Of a stretch of DNA of 64,000 nt, positions 15,225 through 63,831 are shown one piece after another. The notes beneath the pieces are model-generated. The model was not told the DNA's origin and searched no databases. It saw only the letters and a list, made by a program, of their open reading frames with translations. Made by a program: the position numbers and the translations under genes. Source of the stretch: Bacteroidetes bacterium GWF2_38_335 (lineage in GTDB: Bacteria > Bacteroidota > Bacteroidia > Bacteroidales > GWF2-38-335); NCBI GenBank assembly GCA_001769535.1, contig MEOH01000016.1, forward strand, positions 62,001 to 126,000, read 5' to 3'. Numbering within the stretch: position 1 is the first letter of the stretch; each line of letters begins with the position of its first letter.

Positions 15225-15239
15225 TTCACCATTTAAACA

Positions 15240-31146: not shown

Positions 31147-31150
31147 GCCA

Positions 31151-31196: not shown

Positions 31197-31275
31197 TATA
31201 ATCTGACCTGAACAATGTATACTTTCGGAAGTTTTTTCCGTATAACATATGTTTTTGACAGATAAAGGAGAATAA

Positions 31276-43988: not shown

Positions 43989-45221
43989 ATGAAAGTACTC
44001 GTTTTAAATTGCGGAAGTTCGTCAATTAAGTATCAGTTTCTTGAAATGGCAGGCGAACCTATCCTATTAGCCAAAGGATTGCTTGAAAGAATCGGTCTGA
44101 AAGACGGTGAGTTTGCTCATAAAACCTCAGACGGCAAAAAACATCAGGTTGTTGTTGATATTCCCGATCACACATTCGGAATCTCAATTCTTCTTGAAGC
44201 CCTCACAAATAAAGACCATGGAGTAATTACGAGTGTTAAGGAAATAGATGCAGTAGGCCACCGGGTTGTTCATGGCGGTGAAGAATTTACCAAATCAGTG
44301 CTAATCAATGAGCAAATCAAAGCGAAAATTAAAGAATGCATTGAACTGGCTCCTCTTCACAATCCCGCTAATTTAAAAGGCATTGAAGCGATGGAAGCAA
44401 ACGCTCCCGGCATCCCACAGGTTGCAGTTTTCGACACATCCTTCCATCAAACAATGCCTAAACACGCATACATATATGGGCTACCTTACGAATATTACGA
44501 AAAATATAAAGTAAGAAGATATGGGTTTCATGGAACCAGTCATAAATACGTTGCTCAAAGAACAGCTGAATTCCTTGGAAAAGATTATAATAAATTAAAA
44601 ATTATTACCTGTCACCTTGGCAATGGAGCCTCCATCACTGCAGTTAAAAACGGAATATCTGTTGATACATCAATGGGTATGACTCCGGTTGAAGGTCTGC
44701 TTATGGGAACACGCTGTGGAGATACAGGGTTGGGCACATTTCTTTACCTTATTGAAAAGGAAAACATGTGTTACAAAGATGTAAATACACTGATTAATAA
44801 AAAAGGGGGATTGCTTGGGATTTCCGGACTATCACCCGACATGAGAGATTTGAAACAGGCAGCTGATGAAGGACACGAAAGAGCTGCACTTGCCATTGAA
44901 ATCTTTGCTTACCGGGTAAAAAAATACATTGGAGCTTACACAATGGCCATGGGTGGTGTTGATGCAATTGTTTTTACAGGTGGAATCGGAGAAAATGCAA
45001 AATTTATCAGGGAAATGATTTGTTCTGATATGGGATTTATCGGATTGCATTTTGATAAAGATAAAAATAATCAGGTACAGGGTGTTGCAGCAGAAATATC
45101 AACCCCTGCATCAACCGTAAAATGCATTGTTATGCCAACAAACGAAGAATTGGTCATTGCTACCGACACAAAAGAAATTGTTGGTAAAATTGGCGGATGC
45201 GGTTGTGGATGTAAACATTGA
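43989..45221 (+). CDS. ackA: Acetate kinase, first copy
   Basis: 410 residues, full-length AckA of the ASKHA fold, making ATP and acetate from acetyl phosphate. Motifs: VLNCGSSSIKYQFLE, GHRVVHGGEEF, APLHNPANLKGI, FDTSFHQTMP, RRYGFHGTSHKYV, CHLGNGASI, GLLMGTRCGD with the catalytic Arg, FTGGIGENA and PTNEELVIATD. The C-terminus carries an additional tail GKIGGCGCGCKH with four cysteines (counting one in the preceding segment, three in the tail proper) that is absent from the second copy and could bind metal. The second copy follows 169 bp downstream. Confidence 0.95.
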   Translation: MKVLVLNCGSSSIKYQFLEMAGEPILLAKGLLERIGLKDGEFAHKTSDGKKHQVVVDIPDHTFGISILLEALTNKDHGVITSVKEIDAVGHRVVHGGEEFTKSVLINEQIKAKIKECIELAPLHNPANLKGIEAMEANAPGIPQVAVFDTSFHQTMPKHAYIYGLPYEYYEKYKVRRYGFHGTSHKYVAQRTAEFLGKDYNKLKIITCHLGNGASITAVKNGISVDTSMGMTPVEGLLMGTRCGDTGLGTFLYLIEKENMCYKDVNTLINKKGGLLGISGLSPDMRDLKQAADEGHERAALAIEIFAYRVKKYIGAYTMAMGGVDAIVFTGGIGENAKFIREMICSDMGFIGLHFDKDKNNQVQGVAAEISTPASTVKCIVMPTNEELVIATDTKEIVGKIGGCGCGCKH

Positions 45222-45252
45222 TGTATGATGTACACAATTGTGGACGTAACAA

Positions 45253-45280
45253 CTCCCCTCCTTGGAGGGGTTGGGGGAGG
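45253..45280. repeat. Dispersed palindromic G/C-rich repeat
   Basis: CCCCTCC-TT-GGAGGGG palindrome followed by TTGGGGGAGG, located between the two acetate kinase genes. G+C-rich elements of this form are found scattered in Bacteroidota genomes. It is surrounded by short TGTATGATG direct repeats (45228 and 45292 areas). May also act as a transcript-processing or stabilising hairpin. Confidence 0.75.
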
Positions 45281-45390
45281 GTAAACTCTCTTTGTATGAT
45301 GCATGATGTGTTAAATGCAAATTACTGATTACTATCTAGTTAAAAAAAGAAATATTTATTAAAAATTAAAACAATAACAATAAAAATCGG

Positions 45391-46593
45391 ATGAAAATTT
45401 TAGTATTAAATTGTGGAAGTTCATCAATAAAATATCAATTGCTTGATATGAAAGATGAAAGTGTATTGGCTCAGGGAATTGTTGAAAGGGTTGGCTGTAA
45501 ATCAGCAGAGCTCACACATAAAGTTCCAGGCAGGGATAAATATATCCTCGAGCAGGAAATTATGGACCATACCGCCGGTATTGATTTAATCCTCAATAAA
45601 TTGATGGATGCAACCGTTGGTGTTTTAAAAGACAAAAACGAGATCACAGCAGTAGGTCATCGCGTAGTACATGGAGGAGAAACTTTCAGCGGCAGTGTAA
45701 AAATAACCCAGCAGGTCATTGATAAAATGGAAGAATGTGTAGATTTGGCTCCTCTTCACAATCCTGCAAACCTGAAAGGTATTTATGCCATGCAGAAACT
45801 TCTGCCTGATGTTCCCCAATGCGGAACTTTTGATACTGCCTTTCACCAAACCATGCCCGAACATGCTTTCATGTATGCTATTCCTTATGAATTGTATGAT
45901 AAATACAAAATCAGAAGGTATGGTTTCCATGGTGCCAGTCACAAATTTATTTCAGAAACTGCAGCTGAATTTATCGGCAAAAAATACAACGAGGTTAAAA
46001 TCATCACCTGCCACCTTGGCAATGGTGCTTCAATAGCCGCCGTTAAAAACGGAAAATCAGTTGACACATCAATGGGACTTACTCCGGTTGAAGGTCTGAT
46101 CATGGGCACACGCGCCGGCGACTTTGATCTTGGTGCATTATTCTACATCATGGACAAGGAAAAAATGGATGCCAAAGACGCCAACAACATGGTAAATAAA
46201 AAATCAGGCGTTCTTGGAATTTCAGGTGTCGGATCAGATATGAGAGACATTGAAAATGCTGCCTGGAAAGAAAATAACCACCGTGCAAAACTGGCTTTGG
46301 AAATGTATTCCTACCGTGTAAAAAAATACATCGGCTCTTACGCTGCTGCCATGGGCGGTTGCGACATTATTGTTTTTTCTGGTGGTGTGGGTGAAAATGG
46401 TCCCGAAACCAGGGAAGCTATTTGCAGCGGACTTGAGTTTATGGGTGTTGAGTTTAACCCCGAAGCGAATAAAGGATTGCGTGGCAAGCTAACTGATATT
46501 TCCAAACCATCTTCAAAAGTAAAAGTACTTGTAGTACCTACCAATGAAGAACTGGTAATAGCACGCGATGCCATGACCATTATTAATGGATAG
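45391..46593 (+). CDS. Acetate/propionate kinase, second copy
   Basis: 400 residues, complete AckA-family kinase with all active-site motifs: LNCGSSSIKYQLLD, GHRVVHGGETF, APLHNPANLKGI, FDTAFHQTMPEHAF, RRYGFHGASHKFI, GLIMGTRAGDFDLG, FSGGVGENGPETRE and PTNEELVIARD. It differs from the first copy near the catalytic Arg (TRAGDFDLG against TRCGDTGLG) and lacks the Cys-rich tail, so it could prefer another short acyl phosphate such as propionyl phosphate. It lies upstream of ptb-buk, separated by the hairpin at 46605. Confidence 0.93.
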   Translation: MKILVLNCGSSSIKYQLLDMKDESVLAQGIVERVGCKSAELTHKVPGRDKYILEQEIMDHTAGIDLILNKLMDATVGVLKDKNEITAVGHRVVHGGETFSGSVKITQQVIDKMEECVDLAPLHNPANLKGIYAMQKLLPDVPQCGTFDTAFHQTMPEHAFMYAIPYELYDKYKIRRYGFHGASHKFISETAAEFIGKKYNEVKIITCHLGNGASIAAVKNGKSVDTSMGLTPVEGLIMGTRAGDFDLGALFYIMDKEKMDAKDANNMVNKKSGVLGISGVGSDMRDIENAAWKENNHRAKLALEMYSYRVKKYIGSYAAAMGGCDIIVFSGGVGENGPETREAICSGLEFMGVEFNPEANKGLRGKLTDISKPSSKVKVLVVPTNEELVIARDAMTIING

Positions 46594-46604
46594 TAACTGA
46601 TTTC

Positions 46605-46629
46605 AGTGACCGGCTACATACCGGTCACT
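46605..46629 (+). terminator. Stem-loop between second acetate kinase gene and ptb
   Basis: Perfect 9-bp stem AGTGACCGG / CCGGTCACT with a seven-base loop, followed by AT-rich sequence and a run of ten T from about 46640. A terminator or attenuator. Confidence 0.75.
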
Positions 46630-46652
46630 TTAATATTTAATTTTTTTTTTGA

Positions 46653-47552
46653 ATGGAACTGAAACAATTATCGGCTTTTATTGATAAAGCAAAAGGAAAA
46701 ACCATAAAAAGACTTGTTGTGGCAGCCGCAGCCGACGAACCGGTGCTTGAAGCTGTGCGCGATGCAGTAAAAGAAGGAATCATCGTACCCATCCTTGTTG
46801 GTGATAAAACAGAAATCACAAACATCTGCAATAAAATCAATTTTAAACTTGACGGAATAGAAATCGTTCAGGAAAAAGATCCCCTGGCCGCTTCAGCTAA
46901 AGCAGTCGAAATAATTAAAAGCGGAAAAGGCGATATACTTATGAAGGGACTTGTTGGTACCGGCCCAATGCTAAAATATGTACTTGACAAAGAAAAAGGA
47001 TTGAGAAAGGGAAGCACTTTAAGTCACATTGCAATCTTTGAATCACCCTATTACCATAAACTTATTGCAGTGACTGATGCTGCGATGAATGTGACTCCAG
47101 ATTTTGATGAAAAAGTTGCCATCATCAACAATGCCGTTGAAGCCATGAAAAAACTGGGATACAAAAATCCAAAAATTGCTGTTATCGGTGCCGTTGAAAC
47201 CGTAAATCCTAAAATGGAAGCTACCGTTCATGCTGCCATGCTCACACAAATGAATAAACGCAATCAGATAAAAGGCTGCATCATTGACGGTCCGCTTGCC
47301 CTCGACAACGCCGTTTCAAAAGAAGCTGCCCATCACAAAGGAATTGTTAGCGAAGTGGCAGGCGATTGCGACCTGATCATGACTCCGGATATCAATTGCG
47401 GAAATATACTATACAAAAGCATCAATTTCCTGGGCGGAGGAATTTGCGCTGCAGTTATTATGGGTGCAACTGTTCCCATCGTTTTAACATCAAGATCTGA
47501 CAGCGACAGAAGTAAATTAATGTCTATTGCCATGGCTGCTGCAATGGAATAA
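46653..47552 (+). CDS. ptb: Phosphate butyryltransferase
   Basis: 299 residues, the usual Ptb length and shorter than Pta. It converts butyryl-CoA (or branched acyl-CoA such as isovaleryl-CoA) to the acyl phosphate. Motifs: GDILMKGLVGTGPMLKYVLD, STLSHIAIFESPYYHKLI, VTDAAMNVTPDFDEKVAIIN, VIGAVETVNPKMEATVHAA, CIIDGPLALDNAVS and LIMTPDINCGNILYKS. Followed after 12 bp by buk, with which it forms the standard two-enzyme route to butyrate and ATP. Confidence 0.95.
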   Translation: MELKQLSAFIDKAKGKTIKRLVVAAAADEPVLEAVRDAVKEGIIVPILVGDKTEITNICNKINFKLDGIEIVQEKDPLAASAKAVEIIKSGKGDILMKGLVGTGPMLKYVLDKEKGLRKGSTLSHIAIFESPYYHKLIAVTDAAMNVTPDFDEKVAIINNAVEAMKKLGYKNPKIAVIGAVETVNPKMEATVHAAMLTQMNKRNQIKGCIIDGPLALDNAVSKEAAHHKGIVSEVAGDCDLIMTPDINCGNILYKSINFLGGGICAAVIMGATVPIVLTSRSDSDRSKLMSIAMAAAME

Positions 47553-47564
47553 AAATGATTCGTT

Positions 47565-48641
47565 ATGAGTTTTTACAAAATTATCGTGATTAACCCGGGG
47601 TCAACTTCAACAAAAGTTGCCGTGACCCTTAACACAAAACTTCTTTTTCTGAAAAATATCAAGCACTCTCTTGAAGAAATTTCTCAGTTCAGAAAGATTG
47701 CCGATCAATATGAATTCAGAAAAAAAATCATTCTGGATGAGTTGGAAGATGCCGACATCAATATCAGCAAAGTAAATGCAGTCATTGGCCGTGGCGGTTT
47801 ATTAAAACCCATCGAGGGTGGTGTTTACCGGGTAAACGAAGCCATGATTAGAGATATCCATAATCCTATGGGTGAGCATGTTTCAAACCTTGGCGGAATT
47901 ATTGCCTATGAAATTGCTGCCATGATTGGAAAAGATATTCCTGCTTTTATTTCTGACCCAACCTGCATGGATGAATTGGAAGATGTGGCTAGAATATCAG
48001 GCCTTCCTGAAATTCCCCGTTTAAGTTTTCTTCACGCCCTGAACCAAAAAGCCACAGCACGAAGGTTTGCAAAGGAAAACGGCAAGCATTATGAAGAAAT
48101 GAATCTGATTGTTGTGCACATGGGTGGCGGTATTACTGTTGGCGCACACAAAAACGGAAGGATTATTGACACCAACAATGGGTTGAACGGCGATGGCCCT
48201 TTTAGTCCGGAACGTGCCGGAGGATTGCCATCCGGACAATTGGTTGAACTTTGTTATTCTGAAAAATATACCAAAACCGAAGTGCTTCATAAACTGAAAG
48301 GCGGCGGAGGCATGATTGCACACCTCGGCACAACCGACCTTATTGAAGTAGAAGACAGAATCGAAAAAGGTGACAAAAAAGCCGAGCTGATTTACGAAGC
48401 CATGGTGTATCAGACTGCCAAACTGATTGGCGGTATGAGCACTGTGCTAAAGGGAAAAGTGGAAGGCATTATTTTAACTGGTGGAATTGCATTCAGTGAA
48501 AAGTTTACCACCATGCTGATTGAACGCATCAACCATTTGGGACCCATTGTAATTTATCCCGGCGAAGATGAAATGTTGGCCCTGGCCATGAACTGCTTTA
48601 TGGCTCTGAAAGGCGAATTGGATGTAAAAGAATACATTTAA
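47565..48641 (+). CDS. buk: Butyrate kinase
   Basis: 358 residues, normal Buk length. ASKHA-fold kinase making ATP from butyryl phosphate or branched-chain acyl phosphates. Motifs: VINPGSTSTKVAV at the N-terminus, VIGRGGLLKPIEGGVYRVN, HVSNLGGIIAYEIA, FLHALNQKATARRFA, VVHMGGGITVGAHKNGRIID and GIILTGGIAFSEKF. Co-transcribed with ptb. Confidence 0.96.
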   Translation: MSFYKIIVINPGSTSTKVAVTLNTKLLFLKNIKHSLEEISQFRKIADQYEFRKKIILDELEDADINISKVNAVIGRGGLLKPIEGGVYRVNEAMIRDIHNPMGEHVSNLGGIIAYEIAAMIGKDIPAFISDPTCMDELEDVARISGLPEIPRLSFLHALNQKATARRFAKENGKHYEEMNLIVVHMGGGITVGAHKNGRIIDTNNGLNGDGPFSPERAGGLPSGQLVELCYSEKYTKTEVLHKLKGGGGMIAHLGTTDLIEVEDRIEKGDKKAELIYEAMVYQTAKLIGGMSTVLKGKVEGIILTGGIAFSEKFTTMLIERINHLGPIVIYPGEDEMLALAMNCFMALKGELDVKEYI

Positions 48642-48724: not shown

Positions 48725-50332
48725 ATGTTTGTATTAGAAACAAAAATCAATACAAACTCTGACGAGTTCAAAAAGAACAAGGAAGAGTTTTTGAAACTCC
48801 TTGACAATTACAAGGAAATCCATAAAAAAACAACCTACGGCAGAGTAGACAGTGCCATTGACCTGCACAAAAAAAGAGGCAAACTTTTAGCAAGGGAACG
48901 CATCGACCTGTTGGTTGATCCCAACACGCCATTTCTCGAACTGTCAGCACTTGCTGCAATTGACCAGTATGATAATGGGTTCCCTTCAGCCGGAATTGTA
49001 ACCGGGATAGGTATCGTTCACGGCCGCGAAGTGGTTATCATTGCCAATGACGCGACTGTTAAAGGCGGTACTTACATGAAATGGACCATCAAAAAACACC
49101 TTCGTGCACAGGAAATTGCCATGGAAAATCTTTTGCCATGTATTTATATGGTAGACAGTGGTGGTGCTTTTCTTCCCGAGCAGGATACTGTTTTTCCCGA
49201 TAAAGACCATTTTGGAAGATTCTTCTATAATCAGGCCCGTATGTCATCAATGGATATTCCTCAGGTTGCCATTGTTATGGGATCTTGTACAGCAGGCGGA
49301 GCTTATGTTCCGGCTATGTCTGACGAAACCATCATCATCAGAAACCAGGGAACCATTTTCCTTGGGGGACCTCCATTGGTTAAAGCTGCTACCGGCGAAG
49401 TGGTGACTCCCGAAGAACTTGGCGGCGCCGAAGTACACACATCCATTTCGGGTGTTGCCGACCATATTGCAGAAGATGATACCCATGCCATCCAGATTTG
49501 CAGAAATATTTTCCAGTCAATGCGAAAAAAACAAAGACAAAAACTGGATATCGCTCCCATCGAAGAGCCAGCTTATGACCCCACTGAACTGTATGGAATC
49601 GCCCCCATCGATCTTAAAAAAATGATCGACCCACGCGAAATTATCATGAGGATTGTTGACGGAAGTAAATTTCATGAATTCAAAGAAAAATACGCCACCA
49701 CCATTGTCACCGGTTTTGCCCGTGTAATGGGTTATCCTGTTGGTATTATTGCTAATAATGGTGTGCTTTTTTCCGAATCTGCCCTCAAAGCCACTCATTT
49801 TATTGAGATATGCAACACCCGCAAAATTCCATTGGTCTTTTTACAGAATATCACCGGATTTATTGTAGGTAAAGACTTTGAAAGAAAAGGTATTGCGAAA
49901 GACGGAGCCAAAATGGTTCACGCTGTCGCCAATGCCAATGTACCAAAATTTACTTTCCTTATCGGAGGTTCATTCGGTGCCGGTAATTACGGGATGTCGG
50001 GCAGGGCATTTGGACCAAGAATGTTGTTCATGTGGCCCAATGCAAAAATATCTGTTATGGGAGGCGAACAGGCTGCCAATGTTCTGATTCAGGTTAAAAT
50101 GGATCAGTATAAATCAAAAGGACAGGAAATGCCAAAAGAAGAAGTTGACCAGATGAAATCATCCATCATGGCAAAATACGAAAAAGAAGGTTCTTGCTAC
50201 TATTCAACTTCGAGATTATGGGATGACGGTATCCTTGATCCTGTTGATACACGCAAAGTCATTGCCATGGGAATTGCAACTTCATTGAACAATCCTTACC
50301 CTGAACATAAGGTGGGTGTATTTAGAATGTAA
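48725..50332 (+). CDS. Acyl-CoA carboxyltransferase, methylcrotonyl-CoA carboxylase beta-like
   Basis: 535 residues, the length of methylcrotonyl-CoA carboxylase beta (LiuB). It moves a carboxyl group between biotin and an acyl-CoA. Subfamily-like stretches: [85 protein letters not shown], and in the C-terminal half [20 protein letters not shown] and [13 protein letters not shown]. Both oxyanion-forming glycine regions are intact. No biotin carboxylase is encoded in the window; the only biotin carrier is the 5S-like protein at 55.6 kb, with which it could form a complex. Followed by repeat array A and a LiuC-like hydratase. Confidence 0.9.
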
Positions 50333-50339
50333 TTTTTTG

Positions 50340-50560
50340 GCCGCTAATGCGCTAATGATATTATATTTTTTTGGCCGCTAATGCGCTAATATTTTAATTT
50401 GTAATCTATTCGCATATTAGCGGCAAAACAAAACCAACTATATACCAAACATTCGCGCATTAGCGGCTATAAAACATCAACAACAATTAACCCATTCATT
50501 CGCGCATTAGCGGCCAAAAATATCAACAACAATTAATCCATTCATTCGCGCATTAGCGGC
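50340..50560. repeat. Repeat array A: six copies of a 17-bp repeat
   Basis: Consensus GCCGCTAATGCGCGAAT, containing the dyad CGC-TAAT-GCG. Copies 1-2 read on the plus strand (50340-50356, 50374-50390) and copies 3-6 in the opposite orientation (50408-50424, 50451-50467, 50498-50514, 50544-50560). The last three are tandem with 46-47 bp spacing and similar spacers containing ATCAACAACAATTAA. The last copy ends 13 bp before the LiuC-like gene. Confidence 0.95.
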
Positions 50561-50573
50561 AAATAAAAACAAT

Positions 50574-51362
50574 ATGAAAAAACACGAAACAATAGAATTC
50601 GAATTAAAAGACGGTATCGGAACCGTTTGGTTCAATCGTCCCGATAAACACAATGCCCTTAACGATGTCATGATTTCGGAAGTCATTGACTGTTTTGAGG
50701 AAATAAACAAAATGCCTGAAGTCAGGATTGCTGTTGTCAAAGGGCGCGGACCATCATTCTGTGCCGGTGCCGACCTCAACTACATGAAAGGCATTGCACA
50801 ATTTGGATATGAGCAAAACTATCAGGATAGTTTGCGTCTTGCCAAATGTTTCAACGTTATTTACACCTGCAACAAACCCACCATTGCAGTAGTTCATGGT
50901 GCCGCCATTGGCGGAGCAAACGGAATTTTAGCCGCCTGCGATTTTGTTTATTGCGACGACGAAACAAAATTTGCTTTCAGCGAAGTGAAACTGGGAATTG
51001 CTCCGGCCACCATCTCCCCTTACGTCACAAAAAGGGTGGGCGAATATGGCTCGCGCGACTTAATGCTCACCGGACGCAGATTTACCGGAAAAGAAGCAGA
51101 GTGGTATCGCTTGGTCAATAAATCAGTCCCGGCAGCCGAACTTGAAGAATACGTGACCAAAATGATCGGAGTACTTATGACCAGTGGTCCGGACGCCATG
51201 GCCGCCTGCAAAAAACTCATATTCGACATTTCGAACAAGCTTTCATTTGATGAATCCATTGACTACACAGCCAGATTAATTGCCGAACTCAGGGCATCGA
51301 AAGAAGGACAGGAAGGTATGGCTTCATTTTTGGAGAAGAGGAAGCCGAATTGGGTGAAATAG
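50574..51362 (+). CDS. Enoyl-CoA hydratase/isomerase, LiuC (methylglutaconyl-CoA hydratase)-like
   Basis: 262 residues, crotonase fold. Oxyanion-hole segments FCAGADLNYMKG and AAIGGANGILAACDF are present. Canonical crotonase carries Glu in the second segment (GGGCELA); here it is GGANGILA, while the second catalytic Glu is kept in FSEVKLGIAPATISPYV. Both features, especially LGIAPATISPYV, match LiuC-type methylglutaconyl-CoA hydratases of leucine degradation. The product would be 3-hydroxy-3-methylglutaryl-CoA. It follows a methylcrotonyl-CoA carboxylase beta-like gene, which supports this, although HMG-CoA lyase is not in the window. Confidence 0.87.
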   Translation: MKKHETIEFELKDGIGTVWFNRPDKHNALNDVMISEVIDCFEEINKMPEVRIAVVKGRGPSFCAGADLNYMKGIAQFGYEQNYQDSLRLAKCFNVIYTCNKPTIAVVHGAAIGGANGILAACDFVYCDDETKFAFSEVKLGIAPATISPYVTKRVGEYGSRDLMLTGRRFTGKEAEWYRLVNKSVPAAELEEYVTKMIGVLMTSGPDAMAACKKLIFDISNKLSFDESIDYTARLIAELRASKEGQEGMASFLEKRKPNWVK

Positions 51363-51464
51363 TACCCTTTCCAAAATCTACGAGGGCTCTCTAACTTAGC
51401 AGTAACGAGTTGAAGTTAAGGGGTTAATTTATTTGTTTTTTTTAGGTTACCTAGAAAATATTAC

Positions 51465-51472
51465 TATATTTG
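51465..51472 (+). promoter_or_regulatory. -7 promoter element of the outer-membrane/SpoIIE pair
   Basis: TATATTTG, exact TAnnTTTG, 34 bp before the TTG start at 51506. A TTAG at 51442 sits at the -33 distance, a weak match. Confidence 0.5.
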
Positions 51473-51505
51473 TTTGTGATTATTAACCTATAAAGAAAAA
51501 GACCT

Positions 51506-52411
51506 TTGAACAGCAACAAAGTAAATAAATATCTTTTCAGGATCATTTTTGTTTGGTCACTTTTCCTTTTTCAGCCGGTTTGTTCTCAGGATTATATAGA
51601 TTTATTAAGTGCCGGCACAAACTATGTGCCCGACAATAAATACGAAAACAGTGATTCAAGTTTCAAATTAGCCCATAATTTCTTACATATTCAATATCCA
51701 AAAGTCTTTGAAAACAAAGATGTTTTTCTCACGAAATTATCCTTAAACCATTATCGCTGGGCCGAAACATCCAATCTCGATTTTTATAATATTTATCTTC
51801 AACTTGGACTTCTGAAACACTTCGGTGAAAAAACCAGTCTGAGATTCGCTGTAACCCCAAAAATATCAAGTCAGCTAAAAGACATCGAAGGCAATGATTT
51901 TGTGGTTCCCGTGATCGGAGTTTTACAGCTCAAGCCCAAAGAAACTTTTTCCTGGGGATTGGGAATCTATTACTCCTATGAGTTTTTTGGACATTACTTT
52001 AATCCTGCCATTTATATCAAGTGGGACATCAATGACCATCTGACATTCTATTCGGATTTCCCATCTTACGGATATCTTGCTTATCACAAAGATCAGAAAC
52101 TGAATACAGGAATTTGGATTGCCTCTTCCACAACATCAGTCAGATTATCCAACGAATACAACAGCAGATATATTCAGAAAGGTTATGTGGATGCCTCCTG
52201 GTTTTATGACCTCTATCTTACAAAAAACATTGTCATCAGAGCCAAGGCAGGGTATTCTGTAATGAGAGCACTCGACCTGTATGCAAAAAATGACAAAGTG
52301 CCTTTCACTTTTTCAGTGATGGAATTCAACGACGAAAGAGTCCAGCTGAATGATGATATTGACGATGCATTTTTCTTTGAAATCAGTTTAAATTACAGAT
52401 ATCATTACTAG
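51506..52411 (+). CDS. Predicted outer-membrane beta-barrel protein (DUF6268-like)
   Basis: 301 residues from a TTG start; no in-frame ATG precedes the mature region, and the first 28 residues form a signal peptide ending QPVCSQ. The rest alternates amphipathic strands and short turns (FLTKLSLNHYRWAETSNLDF, SWGLGIYYSYEFFGHYFNPA, IVIRAKAGYSVMRALDLY) and ends in aromatic NYRYHY, consistent with an outer-membrane barrel of the DUF6268 type. Family assignment is tentative. It precedes the DISM/SpoIIE gene by 3 bp, so the two products probably function together. Confidence 0.75.
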   Translation: MNSNKVNKYLFRIIFVWSLFLFQPVCSQDYIDLLSAGTNYVPDNKYENSDSSFKLAHNFLHIQYPKVFENKDVFLTKLSLNHYRWAETSNLDFYNIYLQLGLLKHFGEKTSLRFAVTPKISSQLKDIEGNDFVVPVIGVLQLKPKETFSWGLGIYYSYEFFGHYFNPAIYIKWDINDHLTFYSDFPSYGYLAYHKDQKLNTGIWIASSTTSVRLSNEYNSRYIQKGYVDASWFYDLYLTKNIVIRAKAGYSVMRALDLYAKNDKVPFTFSVMEFNDERVQLNDDIDDAFFFEISLNYRYHY

Positions 52412-52414
52412 ACC

Positions 52415-54616
52415 ATGAAAATTAACCTTTATATAAAAGCCGGACTTATTCAATTGAATATCCTGTTTTTGCTTTTATCTGCTTCCATGGTCGCACAATC
52501 TGGTTTTGAAGCAAAAAACGGCATTCTTGATCTTTCAAATTACGATCTGGTTAACAGTCGGAATGCCAGTTTAAAAGGCGAATGGAAATATTGCCCTGAA
52601 AAACTACTGAGTCCTGAAATGGCATTATCCAATATCAATTGGTGCCTCGTAAAAGTCCCCAAAAACCTGAAAGGACAGGAATGCGGTTCAAATGTTCTTG
52701 AAGCAAAAGGATTTGGCACTTATTATCTGATGGTGCTGATAAACCCTGAACTAAAAGGAAAAAGATTGCTTTTAAAAACAACCGGAATACCTTCATCATC
52801 ATTGGTATATATTAACAATGAACTTGTTGGAAAGAGCGGAACGGTATCTGAAAATGAAGAAAGTTATCAGCCCGACATGAAAATTCATTTTCAGGAATTC
52901 ACTCCGGTTTCCGACACCCTGCATATTGTAGTGCAGGTTTCAAATTACAAAATCAGCAAGTTTGGTTTGTATTATAATATTGAGCTCGGACTGGCAGATA
53001 ATATCCGGTCATCAGAGCTCATGGGCGTTGCCTGGGATTTCTTTATTATTGGCTGCATTTTATTGATGATGATGTATCATCTGGTGTTGTTTTTCCTCAG
53101 GAAAAAAGACAGGTCAAATTTGTTTTTTGCCATTGCCTGTTTCGCATTCGCCTATTATACTTTGAGTCTGAGCGAAACATTTTTTCAGATTATGCCCGAA
53201 ATGGGATTTTCTGAGGCTCTTAAGCTTAAACGAATTGCCCTTTACATTTCACTCCCGGCCATGTCGCTTTTCTTCTTTCATGTGCTGAGAAAGGACTTTT
53301 CAAAACTCATGCTGAAAATCATTGTTATCATTTGCAGTGCTTATATTTTAGCCAACATTTTCCTGAAGCTCAGCATCAGTGACAATTTGATTGTTTCATT
53401 CAGGTTTGTGGGATTAATAATTACCCTATATATCCTTTTCGTCATTATAAAAGCGCTTATAAAAAAACGCGAGGGAGCATTAATTCTGGCCATTGGCAAT
53501 TTAATTCTGCTTGCCTCCATCATAAATGATTTTTTATACAACGCCCAGGTTATTTACAGTACTGATCTCATGCCACTCGGAATGCTTTTCTTTCTCTTCC
53601 TTCAATCATATTTATTGGCTACAAGGTTTAACCGGTCTTTTGTCATGAATGAAAAACTGACTGAGGAACTGACTTACATCAACAAAAACCTTGAAAAAAT
53701 CGTTGAAGAAAGAACCGAAGAAATTACATTCCAGAAAAAACAAATTGAAGAGAAAAACGAAGAACTGCACCAGCTTCTGGAGGAAGTCTCATCACAAAGA
53801 GATGAAATAGAAGCCCAGCGTGATCTGGTCACAGAACAAAAAGAGCACATTGAGGAAATACACAAGGAAGTGTCGCAGAGTATTGACTATGCCACCCGCC
53901 TGCAGTCTGCTATTTTACCCGATAAAAACATTCTGAAAGATAATATTTCCGATTTCTTTGTCATGTTTCACCCACGCGACAAGGTCTCAGGTGATTTTTA
54001 CTGGTGGGCAAACATAGAAGGCCACACTATTATTACGGCTGTTGACTGCACCGGACATGGTGTTCCGGGTGCATTTATGAGCATGTTGGGTGTTTCGTAT
54101 CTCAGGGAAATTGTATTAAAGGAATATGTGACACACCCCGGAGTCATACTGAGAAAAATGCGCAAGGAAATCATCCGCTCACTCAAGCAAAAAGGCGTTT
54201 CGGGCGAGCAAAAAGACGGTATGGACATGGCATTGGTTTCTATCAGTCATGCTGATAATAAAATGCTGTTTGCCGGAGCCAACAATCCATTGTATTTTAT
54301 AAGAAACGGCGTACTTACCGAATATAAACCAGATAAAATGCCCATTGCCATCTATGAGAAAATGGACAATTACACAGTGCATGAAATAACCGTTGAAAAA
54401 GGAGATATGTTTTACTTGTTCAGCGATGGCTTGGCCGATCAGTTTGGCGGACCCAACGGAAAGAAATTCATGTACAAGCAATTCAAAGAAATACTCACTG
54501 CCAACAGTCATCTGCCCATGGAAGAACAAAAACAGGCCCTGAGCGATGCCTTCGAAAGCTGGAAAGGATACCATGAGCAAATTGATGATGTTGTGGTTAT
54601 TGGGATTCGGATTTGA
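52415..54616 (+). CDS. 7TMR-DISM receptor with coiled coil and SpoIIE-type PP2C phosphatase
   Basis: 733 residues. Signal peptide (1-28); extracytoplasmic jelly-roll domain of the DISM type (40-195, FGTYYLMVLINPELKGKRLL); seven membrane helices (205-405, starting FFIIGCILLMMMYHLVLFFL); a Glu-rich coiled coil (410-490); and a SpoIIE/RsbU phosphatase (500-733) with DKVSGDFYWW, TAVDCTGHGVPGAFMSMLG, GMDMALVSI, FSDGLADQFGG and a terminal DDVVVIGI metal site. It should detect a small ligand outside the membrane and dephosphorylate a STAS protein in the cytoplasm; the STAS gene at 5.9 kb is a candidate, but the link is speculative. Co-transcribed with the outer-membrane gene. Confidence 0.92.
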   Translation: MKINLYIKAGLIQLNILFLLLSASMVAQSGFEAKNGILDLSNYDLVNSRNASLKGEWKYCPEKLLSPEMALSNINWCLVKVPKNLKGQECGSNVLEAKGFGTYYLMVLINPELKGKRLLLKTTGIPSSSLVYINNELVGKSGTVSENEESYQPDMKIHFQEFTPVSDTLHIVVQVSNYKISKFGLYYNIELGLADNIRSSELMGVAWDFFIIGCILLMMMYHLVLFFLRKKDRSNLFFAIACFAFAYYTLSLSETFFQIMPEMGFSEALKLKRIALYISLPAMSLFFFHVLRKDFSKLMLKIIVIICSAYILANIFLKLSISDNLIVSFRFVGLIITLYILFVIIKALIKKREGALILAIGNLILLASIINDFLYNAQVIYSTDLMPLGMLFFLFLQSYLLATRFNRSFVMNEKLTEELTYINKNLEKIVEERTEEITFQKKQIEEKNEELHQLLEEVSSQRDEIEAQRDLVTEQKEHIEEIHKEVSQSIDYATRLQSAILPDKNILKDNISDFFVMFHPRDKVSGDFYWWANIEGHTIITAVDCTGHGVPGAFMSMLGVSYLREIVLKEYVTHPGVILRKMRKEIIRSLKQKGVSGEQKDGMDMALVSISHADNKMLFAGANNPLYFIRNGVLTEYKPDKMPIAIYEKMDNYTVHEITVEKGDMFYLFSDGLADQFGGPNGKKFMYKQFKEILTANSHLPMEEQKQALSDAFESWKGYHEQIDDVVVIGIRI

Positions 54617-54625
54617 GTTATAATT

Positions 54626-54906
54626 GCCGCTAATGCGCTAATGAATAATTATAAATATAAATGCCTTTTTCTTTTATTTGCCGCTAATGCGCGAATGAAA
54701 AATAATAAGTGAAAAGTATTTTTTATGTAAGACGACAACTTTTACACAATTCATTCGCGAATTAGCGGCTAAAAAATATCAAAAATTTTACCAATTCATT
54801 CGCGCATTAGCGGCTAAAAATATCAACAACATTTTACCCATTTATTCTCGCATTAGCGGCCAAAAAAATCAACAACATTTTACCAATTCATTCGCGCATT
54901 AGCGGC
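54626..54906. repeat. Repeat array B: six copies of the 17-bp repeat
   Basis: Same family and same orientation pattern as array A: two plus-strand copies (54626-54642, 54680-54696) followed by four inverted copies (54753-54769, 54798-54814, 54844-54860, 54890-54906) at 45-46 bp spacing. The third and fifth copies carry single substitutions (ATTCGCGAATTAGCGGC, ATTCTCGCATTAGCGGC). It fills the 308-bp gap between the SpoIIE gene and the GxxExxY gene. Confidence 0.95.
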
Positions 54907-54924
54907 CAAAAAAACCAGCAGCAA

Positions 54925-55320
54925 TTATTTAAACCGACTATTCTCCAACACAATCCTTTTATAATTAAGTCTGGGCTCACCAAAATTCACTAAAAGGCAC
55001 AATTTGTTTCCAGATAGTTTCAGATAGTTTATACATTGAGCAATATGTTCCTCAGAAAAACCCTTTGAAAGCGCTTTTACTTCAAAAATTATTTGGTCTG
55101 ATATTACAAAGTCTGCTTTAAAACGATGTGGTAAAATTATCCCTTTATAATTAACGGTATAAAGCACTTCCCTATCAAATATAATATCAGCATTTTCAAA
55201 CTCCATTTCCAGTGCATCCTTATATACAATTTCCTTAAAACCATGACCAAGATTGTTATGAACTTCCATACAAAGCCCAATAATCTGAAAAACCTCTTTT
55301 TTATAAATCAAATCAGACAT
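54925..55320 (-). CDS. GxxExxY protein, PDDEXK nuclease-like
   Basis: 131 residues from the ATG at 55320; another ATG four codons upstream is possible. The family signature GFKEIVY follows CMEVHNNLGHG, and the PDDEXK-type core is visible as FKADFVISDQIIFEVKAL (Asp, then Glu-x-Lys), ending in LLVNFGEPRLNYKRIV. Related proteins are small and found in many genomes without a settled function; the fold suggests a nuclease. The gene is on the minus strand, between repeat arrays B and C, 18 bp from the nearest B copy, which suggests that gene and repeats moved or expanded together. Confidence 0.88.
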   Translation of the reverse strand: MSDLIYKKEVFQIIGLCMEVHNNLGHGFKEIVYKDALEMEFENADIIFDREVLYTVNYKGIILPHRFKADFVISDQIIFEVKALSKGFSEEHIAQCINYLKLSGNKLCLLVNFGEPRLNYKRIVLENSRFK

Positions 55321-55417
55321 GAAAATATTCATTTTTATTAACTAATTTTTTTTACAATTATACAATAATATTTATTAATTTATAATTTTTTTTATGTTAT
55401 ATTATAATCTATTAAAC

Positions 55418-55563
55418 ATTCGCGCATTAGCGGCTTAAAGAAATCCTACCATCAAAATCATTCGCGCATTAGCGGCATAAAATAAAAAACATCAAAAAAA
55501 CACATTCGCGCATTAGCGGCTTAAAATAAAAAACATCAAAAAACACATTCGCGCATTAGCGGC
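55418..55563. repeat. Repeat array C: four copies of the 17-bp repeat
   Basis: Copies at 55418-55434, 55460-55476, 55504-55520 and 55547-55563, all identical to ATTCGCGCATTAGCGGC and all in the inverted orientation, with 42-44 bp spacing and AAAATAAAAAACATCAAA spacers. It lies between the start of the GxxExxY gene and the start of the biotinylated carboxyltransferase gene. Confidence 0.95.
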
Positions 55564-55616
55564 ATACTAAAAAAATCAATATATTAGCATCGTTATTGAA
55601 TGAACAAACGGAATCT

Positions 55617-57785
55617 ATGAAAAAACAAATAAAATTCAGCCTGATCTACCGCGACATGTGGCAGTCTTCGGGCAAGTACGTTCCCCGTGTGGATCAGCTT
55701 AAGCGCATCGCTCCTGTTATCATTGACATGGGATGCTTTTCGCGCGTGGAAACCAACGGCGGTGCCTTTGAACAGGTAAACCTCCTTTATGGCGAAAACC
55801 CCAATACAGCTGTCCGGGAATGGGTTAAGCCATTTAATGAAGCAGGTATCCAGACTCACATGCTCGAACGCGCGCTCAACGGAATCAGAATGTTTCCCGT
55901 GCCTGCTGATGTGCGCAAACTCATGTATAAAGTTAAAAAAGCTCAGGGTGTTGATATTGCCCGCTCTTTCTGCGGACTCAATGACCACCGCAACCTCGAA
56001 CTATCAATAAAATATGCCAAGGAAGCCGGAATGATTTCTCAGGCCACCCTCAGCATCACCCATTCACCGCTTCATACCGTTGAATATTTTATGGGCGTGG
56101 TTGACAAAGCCGTTGAATACGGAACCGACGAAATATGCCTCAAAGACATGGCAGGCGTTGGTCGTCCCGCCACCCTCGGAAAACTTGTAAAAGCCATCAA
56201 AGATAAATACCCGCACATCATCGTTCAGTATCATGGTCATACCGGACCAGGTTTCTCCGTTGCATCCATGCTCGAAGTTGCCCGCGCCGGAGCCGATTAC
56301 CTCGATTGCGCCATGGAACCCCTGTCATGGGGAATGGTTCATCCCGATGTAATCACCATCCGCCACATGCTGCTCGATGACGGTTTCGACGTGCCCGATA
56401 TCAACATGAATGCCTACATGGAAGCCCGCTCACTCACACAGGAATTCATGGACGATTTCCTCGGATATTTCATCGACCCGAAAAACAGATATCTATCTTC
56501 GCTGATGGTCGATTCAGGACTGCCCGGAGGAATGATGGGCTCCCTCATGGCCGACCTCAAAGGCGTGCATCAGGGAATTAATGCATCACTCGCTGCTGCA
56601 GGAAAATCAGAGCTTTCAGAAGACGAACTCATGGTGAAGCTTTTCGATGAAGTCACCTACATCTGGCCATTGATGGGCTATCCCCCATTGGTTACCCCTT
56701 TCAGTCAGTACGTTAAAAATACTGCCTTGGTCAATGTCATGAATCTTGCCATGGGAAAAGAAAGATTCCAAAGTATTGATCCCAATTCATGGGACATGCT
56801 GCTTGGAAAAGCAGGCCATCTGCCCGGCCCCATCGACCCCATTTTCGTGAAACTGGCCAAAGAGCAAAAACGCGAATTTTACACAGGATTGCCACAGGAT
56901 GCCTATCCCGATGCGCTCGACAAGTACCGCAAAGAAATGAAAGACAACGGCTGGGATACCGGTCCGGATGACGAAGAGCTTTTCGAACTGGCCATGCACG
57001 ACACACAATACAGAGATTACAAATCGGGCGCAGCCAAAGAACGATTCGAAGCAGAAATTGCCAAGTTTAAAACACCTAAAACAACCGTAGCCGTGAACAC
57101 AATAGCAAACCAAAAACCCAACCGCTCATCATACAGCAAAAAAGAACCCAACGAAAGCACCGCCATTGCAGGATTTCTGGCATATGGGTTCAACACCCGT
57201 CAGATCGACCTCAATCCCTACTGGCCGCAAAAACACAATGTTTGGAACTCAATCGGAAGATGGAGAAACACCAATTCAGTTTTCATTGAAGTCGGAAAAG
57301 AGAAAAAAGAAATTTTCTATTCAAAAACCGGAAACAAAGATTTCAAGTTCATCATTGACCACGCCGATTTCGAGACCAAACTGGTTTACATAGAAACCGG
57401 AGAAGTAGATTTCACCGTTAACGGAGACGCCTATTTTGCCAAAGTGGTTAAAGATTCCGAAGGATTTGCCGTGACCATCAACGGAAAAAAATTCAATCTG
57501 AACCGACATGACATGCTCCTTGACGAAACCCATTCCAGCGAAGGACATTCAGGCGGCGAAGGCGACAACTACATCAAATCGCCCATGCCCGGAAAGGTTT
57601 TCAAGCTCAACGTCAAAGAAGGCGACAAAGTAAAAAAAGGCGACACCCTGGTAGTAGTCGAAGCCATGAAAATGGAAAATTCCCTGAACGCTGCCAAAGA
57701 CGGAGTGGTGAAAAAAGTCAACGCCAAGCTGGGCGCCATGGTTGAGATTTCGACTGTATTGGTTGAGTTGGAGGATTTGAAATAA
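55617..57785 (+). CDS. Biotin-dependent carboxyltransferase (5S/PycB/OadA-like) with biotinyl domain
   Basis: 722 residues from the ATG at 55617; an in-frame TTG at 55596 is the alternative. The N-terminal TIM barrel (10-300) resembles transcarboxylase 5S/OadA: SLIYRDMWQSSGKYVP, FCGLNDHRNLELSIKYAKEA, CLKDMAGVG (catalytic Lys) and the metal site QYHGHTGPGFSVA. The pocket differs from pyruvate enzymes: LLRGQN is replaced by MLERALNG and HTHCTSG by HGHTGPG. A helical domain follows, then a linker, and a C-terminal biotinyl domain (650-722) with VVEAMKMENSLNA. No biotin carboxylase domain is present. Substrate uncertain: pyruvate/oxaloacetate or another 2-oxo acid. Confidence 0.9.
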   Translation: MKKQIKFSLIYRDMWQSSGKYVPRVDQLKRIAPVIIDMGCFSRVETNGGAFEQVNLLYGENPNTAVREWVKPFNEAGIQTHMLERALNGIRMFPVPADVRKLMYKVKKAQGVDIARSFCGLNDHRNLELSIKYAKEAGMISQATLSITHSPLHTVEYFMGVVDKAVEYGTDEICLKDMAGVGRPATLGKLVKAIKDKYPHIIVQYHGHTGPGFSVASMLEVARAGADYLDCAMEPLSWGMVHPDVITIRHMLLDDGFDVPDINMNAYMEARSLTQEFMDDFLGYFIDPKNRYLSSLMVDSGLPGGMMGSLMADLKGVHQGINASLAAAGKSELSEDELMVKLFDEVTYIWPLMGYPPLVTPFSQYVKNTALVNVMNLAMGKERFQSIDPNSWDMLLGKAGHLPGPIDPIFVKLAKEQKREFYTGLPQDAYPDALDKYRKEMKDNGWDTGPDDEELFELAMHDTQYRDYKSGAAKERFEAEIAKFKTPKTTVAVNTIANQKPNRSSYSKKEPNESTAIAGFLAYGFNTRQIDLNPYWPQKHNVWNSIGRWRNTNSVFIEVGKEKKEIFYSKTGNKDFKFIIDHADFETKLVYIETGEVDFTVNGDAYFAKVVKDSEGFAVTINGKKFNLNRHDMLLDETHSSEGHSGGEGDNYIKSPMPGKVFKLNVKEGDKVKKGDTLVVVEAMKMENSLNAAKDGVVKKVNAKLGAMVEISTVLVELEDLK

Positions 57786-61177: not shown

Positions 61178-61289
61178 AAAAAAACATCCCCCCTCCCCCT
61201 ATTCCATATCTCAAAAAAAATTTTTATCTTTATATCGAAAAGGTTTTAGCAATTGAAAACCTATTGTTGCAATTAAAAAACATTTGAAT

Positions 61290-62438
61290 ATGAACTTTGA
61301 ATTAACCGAAGAACAAGGGTTTATCAGGGATTCTATCCGCGATTTCGCCGAAAGGGAAATCCGTCCCCTGGCAAAAGAACTCGACGACAAACAGGAATTT
61401 TCTGTTGAACTTACTAAAAAAATGGGTGAAATGGGTCTTTTTGGGATGATCGTTTCACCGGAATATGGCGGACAGGGTCTCGACTATATTTCCTACATCA
61501 TTGCTGTTGAAGAACTGGCAAGGGTTGACAGCTCTCAGGCCGCCACAGTGGCCGCCCACAACTCCCTTGGTGTAAATCCTCTGTACTATTTCGGTACCGA
61601 AGAGCAAAAGAAAAAATACGTTCCCCAACTCTGCACCGGCGAAGCTTTATGGGGTTTCGGACTTACCGAACCGGGTGCCGGATCTGACTCCAGAGCATCT
61701 AAAACCACTGCCAAACTTGAAAACGGTAAGTGGACCATCAACGGCTCCAAAATTTTTATTACCAATGCTTCTGCTACTATTTCAAAAGGATCGACCATTC
61801 AGGCCGTTTCTGATGATAAAGACGGTAAAAAAGAATTTTCTGCCATCATTGTGGAGCAAAACACTCCGGGCTTTACCGCCAAAACAATGCACGACAAAAT
61901 GATGTGGCGCGCTTCAAACACTGCCGAACTGTATCTCGACGACTGCGCAGTTCCCGAAGGAAACCTTCTCGGAAAACGCGGCGACGGATCTAAAATCATG
62001 CTAAACACATTGGATCATGGCAGACTTTCAATCGCTGCAATGGGTCTGGGTTGTGCACAGGGTGCTTTCGAACTGGCGCTGAACTATGCCAAAGAAAGAG
62101 TTCAGTTTGGAAAACCGCTGTCACACAATCAGGTGGTTGCCAACAAACTTGGTGATATGGCACTGAAAATCGAACTGGCAAGAAATCTCCTCTACAAAGC
62201 ATGCTGGCTGAAAGACAATAAAAAACCTTTCGCAAAAGAAGCTGCCATGTCAAAACTGTATTGCTCAGAGATTGCCAAGCAGGTAGCCGACGAAGGCGTT
62301 CAAATCCACGGCGGATACGGTCTGATGAAAGATTACGACATCGAACGTTTCTACAGAGACCAGAGATTATTACAGATTGGCGAAGGAACTTCTGAAATCC
62401 AGAGATTGGTTGTTTCCCGTCACATCGGATGTTATTAA
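61290..62438 (+). CDS. Acyl-CoA dehydrogenase, short-chain type
   Basis: 382 residues from the ATG at 61290; a TTG two codons earlier is possible. FAD enzyme forming a trans-2,3 double bond in acyl-CoA, passing electrons to ETF. Motifs: [58 protein letters not shown]-like [20 protein letters not shown], and [19 protein letters not shown]. The Glu in GEGTSEI is the catalytic base of butyryl-CoA-type enzymes; isovaleryl-CoA dehydrogenases have Gly there. No etfAB genes adjoin it. It is followed by CoA-transferase genes, so it probably belongs to butyrate or branched acyl-CoA metabolism. Confidence 0.93.
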
Positions 62439-62461
62439 TAGAAAATAAATTACATATTTAT

Positions 62462-63154
62462 ATGAATAAAGTTGTTAAAAACGCTCAAGAAGCCATTGCT
62501 GGAATCAAAGATGGCATGACCATCCTTTTCGGCGGCTTCGGACTATGCGGTATTCCCGAAAACTGCATCAATGCGCTTGTTGAAAATGGCATTAAGGACC
62601 TGACCTGTATTTCGAACAATGCCGGTGTTGATACTTTCGGTCTGGGATTACTCCTGAGAAAACATCAGATGAAAAAAATGATGGCTTCTTATGTGGGTGA
62701 AAACAAGGAATTCGAAAGACAACTGCTCAGCGGTGAGCTTGAAGTGGAATTGATTCCGCAAGGCACACTAGCCGAAAGAATCAGGGCTGGCGGATTTGGT
62801 ATTCCTGCTTTCTTTGTTCCCGCTGGTTACGGAACCGAAGTTCAGGGAAACAAAGAAGTCCGTGAATTCAACGGCAAACCCCACATCCTCGAGATGGGAA
62901 TCACCGGCGATTATGCCATCATCAAAGCATGGAAAGGCGATACCAACGGAAACCTCATTTACCGCAATACTGCAAACAATTTCAATGGTCCCATGGCTGC
63001 TGCCGGAAAAATAACCATTGCCGAAGTTGAAGAACTGGTTCCATTTGGCCAGCTTGACCCCAACCAGATTCATACCCCCGGAATTTTCATCCAGAAAATC
63101 TTCCAGGGAACGAACTATGAGAAGAGAATTGAATTTGTAACAGAACGCGAGTAA
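62462..63154 (+). CDS. 3-oxoacid CoA-transferase subunit A
   Basis: 230 residues from the ATG at 62462; the open frame begins earlier but the extra 11 residues overlap the dehydrogenase gene and are not conserved-looking. Family I CoA-transferase alpha subunit with [68 protein letters not shown] and [12 protein letters not shown]. With subunit B it moves CoA between acetoacetate (or butyrate) and succinate or acetate. Lies 23 bp after the dehydrogenase and 20 bp before subunit B, one operon. Confidence 0.95.
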
Positions 63155-63174: not shown

Positions 63175-63831
63175 ATGGCTCTTGATAAAAATAGTATTGC
63201 AAAAAGGATTGCTCAGGAATTAAAGGACGGTTACTACGTCAATCTGGGCATCGGAATACCCACGCTGGTTGCAAATTACATCCCTCAGGGAATGAATGTG
63301 GTGCTGCAATCTGAAAACGGAATGTTGGGCATCGGTCCGTTCCCCGAAAAAGGAAAAGCCGATGCAGATTTGATCAATGCAGGAAAGCAGACCGTGACCA
63401 TACTACCTGGAGGTGCATTTTTTGATTCATCCACCAGTTTCGGAATGATTCGTGGCGGCCATGTTGACCTCACCGTACTTGGTGCTTTCGAAGTAACCGA
63501 AGAAGGCGACATCGCCAGCTGGAAAGTACCCGGAAAACTTGTTAAAGGCATGGGCGGCGCCATGGATTTGGTTGCTGCAGCAAAAAACATCATTGTAGCG
63601 ATGATGCATGCCGACAAAGACGGCAATTCAAAACTGCTGAAAAAGTGTACTTTGCCGCTAACCGGAGTAAAATGTGTGAAGCGTATTGTTACCGATCTGG
63701 CTGTGCTGGATGTTACTCCGAACGGCTTCAAACTCATTGAAAGAGCACCCGGAGTTTCGGTTGAAGAAATCAAATCAAAAACCGAGGGAAAACTGATCAT
63801 TGAGGGAGAAATTCCGGAGATGAAACTATAA
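63175..63831 (+). CDS. 3-oxoacid CoA-transferase subunit B
   Basis: 218 residues, normal beta subunit. The catalytic glutamate that forms the CoA thioester is in [12 protein letters not shown] (about residue 44). Further signatures: [59 protein letters not shown] and [18 protein letters not shown]. In leucine degradation this enzyme activates the acetoacetate released from HMG-CoA; it can also feed butyrate formation. Last gene of the operon, ended by a strong terminator. Confidence 0.96.

Follow-up and report, generated by a model that had tools for sequence, protein, structure and literature searches.

A putative ATP-independent methylcrotonyl-CoA transcarboxylase of Bacteroidales built around a 5S-BT-BCCP fusion protein

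How might a bacterium in whose genome no biotin carboxylase is found carboxylate 3-methylcrotonyl-CoA in the course of leucine breakdown? The question is raised by a stretch of 64,000 nucleotides (the window) from Bacteroidetes bacterium GWF2_38_335 (contig MEOH01000016.1, positions 62,001 to 126,000). It encodes an acyl-CoA carboxyltransferase (CT) resembling the beta subunit of 3-methylcrotonyl-CoA carboxylase (MCC), a LiuC-like 3-methylglutaconyl-CoA hydratase and a fusion protein in which a 5S-type carboxyltransferase, a BT (BC-CT interaction) domain and a biotinyl (BCCP) domain follow one another. We consider it likely that the CT and this 5S-BT-BCCP protein are the two halves of an ATP-independent methylcrotonyl-CoA transcarboxylase, charged from a 2-oxo acid. 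An earlier note on the window, made from the sequence alone, had proposed such an enzyme, and the proposal gains strong indirect support from the BT domain and from the positional replacement of MccA among relatives.

The CT (48725..50332, plus strand, 535 aa), of LiuB/MccB type, would take the role of the 12S subunit of a transcarboxylase. Its kinship to MCC beta, already suspected in the earlier note, is confirmed by a match to Pfam PF01039 (Carboxyl_trans, 509 bits) and by its closest chains in the Protein Data Bank, which are MCC beta subunits at 685-726 bits, with Propionibacterium 12S (1on3) at 268.6 bits. The best chain, 9tps, is labelled as the beta subunit of propionyl-CoA carboxylase (PCC); the same sequence stands in 9tqc, titled as L. 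pneumophila MCC. The protein keeps the GGSFGAGN motif and has the beta carboxyltransferase character of MCC (EC 6.4.1.4); judged on kinship only, it is not a methylmalonyl-/propionyl-CoA subunit of the 12S kind. From this kinship, and from a cluster that includes LiuC, HMG-CoA lyase and acyl-CoA dehydrogenase genes, we infer that the CT acts on 3-methylcrotonyl-CoA. The LiuC-like hydratase (50574..51362, plus strand) also stands as first described; its best NCBIfam match is gamma-carboxygeranoyl-CoA hydratase at 240 bits, where the cut-off of 426 is not reached. Since no listed NCBIfam model for the CT or the 5S protein meets its cut-off, curated family names served as leads only.

The fusion gene (55617..57785, plus strand) encodes 722 aa counted from the ATG, an alternative TTG start 21 bases upstream being possible. 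The 5S-like carboxyltransferase and the biotinyl domain that had been recognised in it are both present, and the BT domain lies between them as a third domain that the earlier note lacked. Profile alignment and structure match place the 5S part at residues 1-482 (55617..57062, plus strand). Aligned by profile to pyruvate carboxylase B (5ks8), P. shermanii 5S (1rqb) and OadA (2nx9), it keeps Asp13, Gln16, Arg85, Lys176, His206 and His208, which we take to be the metal ligands, the carbamyl-lysine position, and the arginine and glutamine of the 2-oxo-acid site; all six are conserved in each of the 21 genomes that carry this long form of the 5S protein. The metal site and carbamyl-lysine position that mark the 5S subunit of EC 2.1.3.1 are thus in place, and the fold matches 5S chains with Z of about 39 over 449-455 residues (rmsd 3.1-3.3).

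The BT domain joins the alpha and beta subunits of MCC, and its identification in the fusion protein lends the proposal strong support. The 5S and biotinyl parts are separated by about 150 residues, and by sequence and model this linker is the BT domain of MccA (residues ~505-640; 57129..57536, plus strand). All 16 complete linkers, freed of their biotinyl end, match MccA within its residues 437-591 by blastp (best E 4e-22 to 1e-7; three best matches considered for each linker), and HHalign of the linker profile against MccA 459-589 gave 99.6% with E 7.5e-25. Two structures were predicted, from alignments A1 (40 rows) and A2 (3 rows), with BT modelled and searched together with the biotinyl domain. 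The AlphaFold2 model of the BT-BCCP part, from 3 sequences (mean pLDDT 71, pTM 0.52), has a long helix, eight strands and a biotinyl barrel. Foldseek returned the alpha subunits of PCC and MCC as its best matches (E down to 1.4e-13), and VIA-align paired human PCC alpha 467-728 with residues 18-235 of the model, and human MCC alpha 501-717 with residues 26-237, at Z of 12.2-14.0 and rmsd of 15-18; many other top rows cover the biotinyl domain only. A difference in the relative placement of the two domains would account for the high rmsd. The BT domain is described as tying together the alpha and beta subunits of PCC (PMC3199775). The biotinyl domain itself (residues 650-722; 57564..57782, plus strand) matches Pfam Biotin_lipoyl at 69.5 bits and bears the motif EAMKMEN, by whose position Lys685 is the biotin site; this lysine is present in 16 of 16 complete long forms. 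The fusion protein therefore contains both the BT docking domain and the BCCP of an MCC.

What it lacks is the biotin carboxylase. The absence of this enzyme, first noticed within the window, extends to the whole genome (5.27 Mb, 29 contigs, 96.68% complete), which has zero matches to PF02785 (C-terminal) or PF00289 (N-terminal); as controls, each profile was positive in 13 of 14 genomes, Thermotoga maritima being the exception. Thus no MccA was found elsewhere in this genome, whereas its presence would, according to the earlier note, have told against the proposal. The only other genome of the window's family likewise has no PF02785 match. Neither the biotin carboxylase alpha subunit of an MCC, sought in the gene and in the genome, nor the biotin carboxylase subunit A of a two-subunit pyruvate carboxylase, sought in the genome, was found. 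These absences agree with an ATP-free carboxyl transfer. Three carboxyltransferases are encoded; biotin-type carriers adjoin two of them, and one more lies inside the window protein. The genome has two BPL/LplA/LipB-family matches, the better of which is probably a biotin ligase.

To place the locus among its relatives we used 247 genomes of the same order, the window's included, each at least 90% complete. A biotin carboxylase is present in 157 and gave no match in 90; a 5S relative (E <= 1e-60) occurs in 82, and the CT (E <= 1e-120) in 107, with an identity of about 60% or higher in 98 of them. The 5S relatives are of two kinds: a long form of ~700-735 aa that has BT, and short forms that lack it, most of them 550-640 aa in length and a few just over 700. 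The long form is found in 21 genomes (with BT seen in 20), a close CT accompanies it in all 21, and in 18 the two lie within 6 kb. One of the 21, G245, has a 5S gene that ends before BT and was counted from its gene order CT-LiuC-5S, so that its co-occurrence is not an independent test. Hence the long form was seen with an MCC-beta-like CT in 20 of 20 genomes with visible BT and in the incomplete 21st, which answers the concern that it might keep another partner; the short paralogues without BT were not found beside a close CT in the neighbourhoods read. Five genomes, G245 included, combine a close CT with no biotin carboxylase, and all five have the long 5S, compared with 16 of the 93 in which CT and biotin carboxylase coexist (Fisher's test, p 0.0003, relatedness ignored). 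A close CT occurs in none of the other 85 genomes that lack biotin carboxylase.

The gene neighbourhoods point to replacement of MccA. We read those of all 98 close-CT genomes, setting aside the other nine of the 107, whose CT has 46-50% identity. Within 6 kb of the CT lies a long 5S in 18 genomes, an MccA in 60 and neither in 20. The partner follows directly after LiuC in 17 of 18 5S loci and in 56 of 60 MccA loci, so that CT-LiuC-5S stands where others have CT-LiuC-MccA. The window locus is the sole 5S exception; in G042 and G244 the partner lies ~3 kb further on and not directly after LiuC. Many loci of both orders continue with dehydrogenase, CoA-transferase and lyase genes (e.g. L119, L130), and a second CT copy, in G035, is near an MccA as well. 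The 20 genomes without a near partner are three of the long-5S set (G001, G011, G088) and 17 others, eight of which have less than 4 kb of downstream sequence and nine more. No 5S lies within 6 kb of the CT in the eight genomes that have a close CT and only short 5S. Of the 80 named loci that carry a 5S relative, four (L002, L003, L037 and L080) have CT and LiuC directly upstream, and no such CT was found in the examined DNA of the other 76. BT is seen in L002 and L003, the genes of L037 and L080 being incomplete; L003 is a contig of G177 and L037 one of G245, so neither is an additional case. In a sample of 392 genomes from across the phylum, five, counting that of the window, had a match at E <= 1e-80, all five being of the same order; two candidates were scored per genome, and distant cases may have been missed.

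None of the 21 long-5S genomes yielded an MccA. A single biotin carboxylase match occurs in 16 of them and none in five. The 16 enzymes are 501-515 aa long, one being divided between two frames; BT was not found beside any of them, and 15 adjoin a biotin carrier and a PCC/ACC-type carboxyltransferase (ACC, acetyl-CoA carboxylase), the sixteenth lying at a contig end. Their size, the lack of BT and a carrier and CT of their own make them look like AccC-type enzymes of another system.

Phylogenies of the parts are compatible with a single event. The catalytic parts of the long 5S proteins group together among the short forms (support 84 for the branch itself, inside 22 rows that make up a starred set), their BT-BCCP parts group together within MccA (support 81 for the branch itself, inside a starred set made up of 19 MccA rows and 16 long ones), and the 21 5S-partnered CTs lie on one side of one branch (SH-aLRT 94); the starred set of 24 CT rows around them also includes two CTs partnered by MccA and one without a partner in view. 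The fusion probably arose by exchange of the biotin carboxylase domain of an MccA for a 5S domain; the trees fit one such swap, with moderate support.

Taken together, these findings suggest the following scheme. The 5S domain would take a carboxyl group off a 2-oxo acid and pass it to the biotin of its own BCCP domain; the donor is most likely oxaloacetate, which would leave pyruvate. BT would dock the fusion protein on the MCC-beta-like CT, to which carboxybiotin would swing, and 3-methylcrotonyl-CoA would be converted to 3-methylglutaconyl-CoA in leucine breakdown, with LiuC and HMG-CoA lyase completing the pathway. An ATP-type phosphoenolpyruvate carboxykinase, which the genome encodes, could supply the oxaloacetate, and the ATP spent by MCC would be spared.

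Such an enzyme would share features with several known systems. Like Propionibacterium transcarboxylase (12S, 5S, 1.3S), the window set combines an acyl-CoA CT, a 5S protein and a biotin carrier without a biotin carboxylase, and the two 5S parts have a common fold and common residues; however, the acyl-CoA subunit is of MCC beta rather than 12S type, the acceptor would be methylcrotonyl-CoA, and the carrier, instead of being a separate 1.3S protein, is fused to 5S through an MCC-type BT domain. With MCC (MccA/MccB, LiuD/LiuB) it has in common the beta subunit, BT, BCCP and a leucine-type cluster, but a 5S domain stands in place of the biotin carboxylase, so that ATP should not be needed. Pyruvate carboxylase B and OadA (5ks8, 2nx9) have a carboxyltransferase domain homologous to the window 5S part, and 5ks8 also ends in a biotinyl domain. 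Unlike them, the window protein has BT, and it falls far below their NCBIfam cut-offs; of their partners, no biotin carboxylase was found in the window genome and no OadB beside the window 5S gene. A Giardia transcarboxylase, said to have been described by King Jordan et al. 2003, is reportedly also fused and free of biotin carboxylase, in a fermenting organism, as one polypeptide with an ACC/PCC-like acyl-CoA part. We found no methylcrotonyl-CoA transcarboxylase in the open-access literature searched, a search that most subscription journals lie outside. Xylanibacter ruminicola is described (PMC11575231) as using a Na+ methylmalonyl-CoA decarboxylase and not a transcarboxylase.

The retained metal and 2-oxo-acid residues make oxaloacetate the likeliest donor, and we regard it as the probable one. 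The earlier note had seen in unusual 5S pocket motifs the sign of a possibly new donor. We reject the motifs as evidence for one: the protein retains the metal ligands as well as the 2-oxo-acid site's arginine and glutamine, and short 5S forms have the odd pattern (MLxRxLN, HGHxGPG) too. Given a two-residue insertion relative to the pyruvate enzymes, which occurs in short forms too, MLERALN aligns to MLLRGQN, and Arg85 thereby matches the conserved arginine in the profile alignment (a single-sequence alignment placed this stretch differently); HGH retains both metal histidines. Position 47 is Asn in the window protein and in 79 of 79 short forms, and Trp in pyruvate enzymes. Position 119 is Cys in 19 of the 21 long-5S genomes and in 75 of 79 short forms; two long-5S genomes have Asp, as do the pyruvate enzymes. 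Since Asn47 and Cys119 are common in short forms, they carry no special signal for the window protein.

Several observations nevertheless weigh against the proposed transcarboxylase. In sequence and in fold, pyruvate carboxylase B and OadA are slightly closer relatives of the 5S part than Propionibacterium 5S is: in the fold match these two (Z 44.4 and 40.0) outscore the 5S chains, and among the best 25 of 40 NCBIfam matches they are the leading names, at 289 bits (cut-off 402) and 263 bits (cut-off 756.5). Asn47, the prevalent Cys119 and the two-residue insertion differ from the pyruvate enzymes, so that the donor is not fixed. The fold search also finds BT in PCC and ACC enzymes, and BT alone cannot therefore name MCC as the partner. 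Three genes part LiuC from 5S in the window, and in G088 the CT and 5S genes lie on separate contigs and are not neighbours. As the genome is a draft, 96.7% complete, one missed gene is possible, and the AccC-type biotin carboxylase of 16 long-5S genomes could in principle charge the carrier. Finally, the trees back a single origin moderately, at SH-aLRT values of 94, 84 and 81, none of which is starred.

The surrounding genes make up a leucine-type set. Downstream on the plus strand are an acyl-CoA dehydrogenase (61284..62438, by Pfam), to which gene context assigns the putative role of isovaleryl-CoA dehydrogenase and which shows 69-82% identity in 5S-type loci where present, and the A and B subunits of a 3-oxoacid CoA-transferase (62429..63154 and 63175..63831; TIGR02429 and TIGR02428, both above cut-off), the A subunit being found again in some clusters of relatives. 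Two HMG-CoA-lyase-like genes lie just beyond the window (positions 8865-9710 and 9858-10865 of locus L001; 180 and 192 bits, cut-off 246 not reached). Upstream, also on the plus strand, are a phosphate butyryltransferase-like gene (Ptb; 46653..47552; NCBIfam 383 bits, slightly below the cut-off of 399), present 5' of the CT in L123, L125, L126 and L131 as well, and a butyrate kinase gene (Buk; 47565..48641; TIGR02707, 513 bits, above cut-off). The region 43989-48641, immediately 5' of the CT, begins with two acetate kinase genes in tandem and continues with this pair. The genes between LiuC and 5S (51506-55332) are a DUF6268, a 7TMR-DISM/SpoIIE and, on the minus strand, a PDDEXK_3 gene; they are absent from there in the 17 relatives in which CT, LiuC and 5S are adjacent, and are probably an insertion.

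Could the same components serve another reaction? Biotin transcarboxylation is reversible in principle, and the complex could run in the opposite net direction, with methylglutaconyl-CoA (from HMG-CoA via LiuC) and pyruvate giving oxaloacetate and methylcrotonyl-CoA, toward isovalerate, and Ptb-Buk providing ATP. The Ptb-Buk pair immediately 5' of the CT speaks for such a route; however, sister genomes have nearly the same gene set with MccA, where it is taken as catabolic, and HMG-CoA lyase and CoA-transferase suit catabolism. We therefore think reversal rather unlikely. A Na+-pumping decarboxylase is a different matter: were the carrier to serve an OadB-type subunit, the protein would be a methylglutaconyl-CoA or oxaloacetate decarboxylase and not a transcarboxylase. 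Its 5S part is homologous to OadA and the genome does encode one OadB/MmdB-type subunit, but this lies on another contig (C3) with MmdA, in a methylmalonyl-CoA epimerase-MmdA-BCCP cluster (pairing in trans is possible), and the long form has BT, a docking domain for acyl-CoA carboxyltransferases, which makes this assignment very improbable.

An ordinary MCC might be assembled in trans, a separate AccC charging BT-BCCP with ATP while the 5S domain contributes a side activity; in favour of this, 16 of the 21 long-5S genomes do possess a single enzyme of AccC type. Yet five, the window genome included, have none, the AccC has its own BCCP and CT in 15 of the 16 (the other lying at a contig end), and the 5S residues are conserved in all 21, so that we hold this for extremely improbable. 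The probability that the CT and 5S genes are unrelated neighbours, the latter encoding a pyruvate carboxylase B or oxaloacetate decarboxylase, is smaller still and close to negligible: the two genes are 5.3 kb apart in the window, where LiuC and 5S are separated by three unrelated genes, short paralogues sit apart from close CTs, and the best profile names are those of pyruvate carboxylase B and OadA, but the CT accompanies the long 5S in 21 of 21 genomes (near in 18), 5S takes the place of MccA, BT is present, and none of the eight genomes with a CT and only short 5S has the two within 6 kb.

Other loci of the window genome bear on its biotin-dependent enzymes. Contig C3 (L207, 7831-13003) combines an MmdA-like CT with a biotin carrier and a Na+ decarboxylase beta subunit, together with two genes that by eye resemble methylmalonyl-CoA epimerase and TerC, and contig C24 (L208) carries a CT with a 103-aa biotin carrier. 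The genome's own short 5S gene is on contig C9 (L206, 9372-11129); next but one to it are two indolepyruvate ferredoxin oxidoreductase subunit-like genes (12793-15289, by eye), and a 794-aa frame at 4495-6879 of that locus is apparently a tandem fusion of two phosphoglycerate kinase units (by eye). Elsewhere in the window, 25801-33273 holds a row of long similar proteins, outer-membrane-like with TPR-, PD40- and OmpA-like stretches (by eye).

It is tempting to ask whether 5S proteins have replaced biotin carboxylases more than once, and there are hints that they have. In G082, which has no biotin carboxylase, a short 5S gene immediately precedes the genes of a PCC/ACC-type CT and of a biotin carrier that stands by itself (L209, 8783-12957, contig C24 of that genome); 15 long-5S relatives have the AccC-type enzyme by such a CT-carrier pair. 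The short 5S proteins mostly end biotinyl-like, many without the biotin lysine motif and others with AMKT or AMKV for AMKM. Some Bacteroidales might then do without any ATP-driven biotin carboxylation, 5S, charged from oxaloacetate or some other 2-oxo acid, having replaced MccA in the fusion and AccC as a short form beside or apart from PCC/ACC-type CTs, a possibility that we put forward tentatively and consider somewhat doubtful, and on which the main proposal does not depend. A 5S relative (E <= 1e-60) occurs in 38 of the 90 genomes without biotin carboxylase and not in the other 52, and 44 of the 157 with biotin carboxylase also have one; replacement by 5S is consequently no general rule. 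Thermotoga maritima, among the control genomes, has no biotin carboxylase match either. Fatty acid synthesis normally needs acetyl-CoA carboxylase, and the 90 of 247 genomes without a biotin carboxylase raise the question of their source of malonyl-CoA. If the wider replacement is true, even malonyl-CoA for fatty acids would be made by transcarboxylation.

Carboxylases and transcarboxylases are usually seen as separate designs; here one operon occurs in related genomes with either an ATP-using domain or one that uses a 2-oxo acid, as in a natural domain swap. With docking and carrier modules of the same kind, such a swap would remove the ATP cost of the step, and could provide a template for engineered ATP-free carboxylation. 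It also predicts a new acceptor for transcarboxylases and, for the anaerobes that carry it, a possible saving of ATP in the breakdown of leucine.

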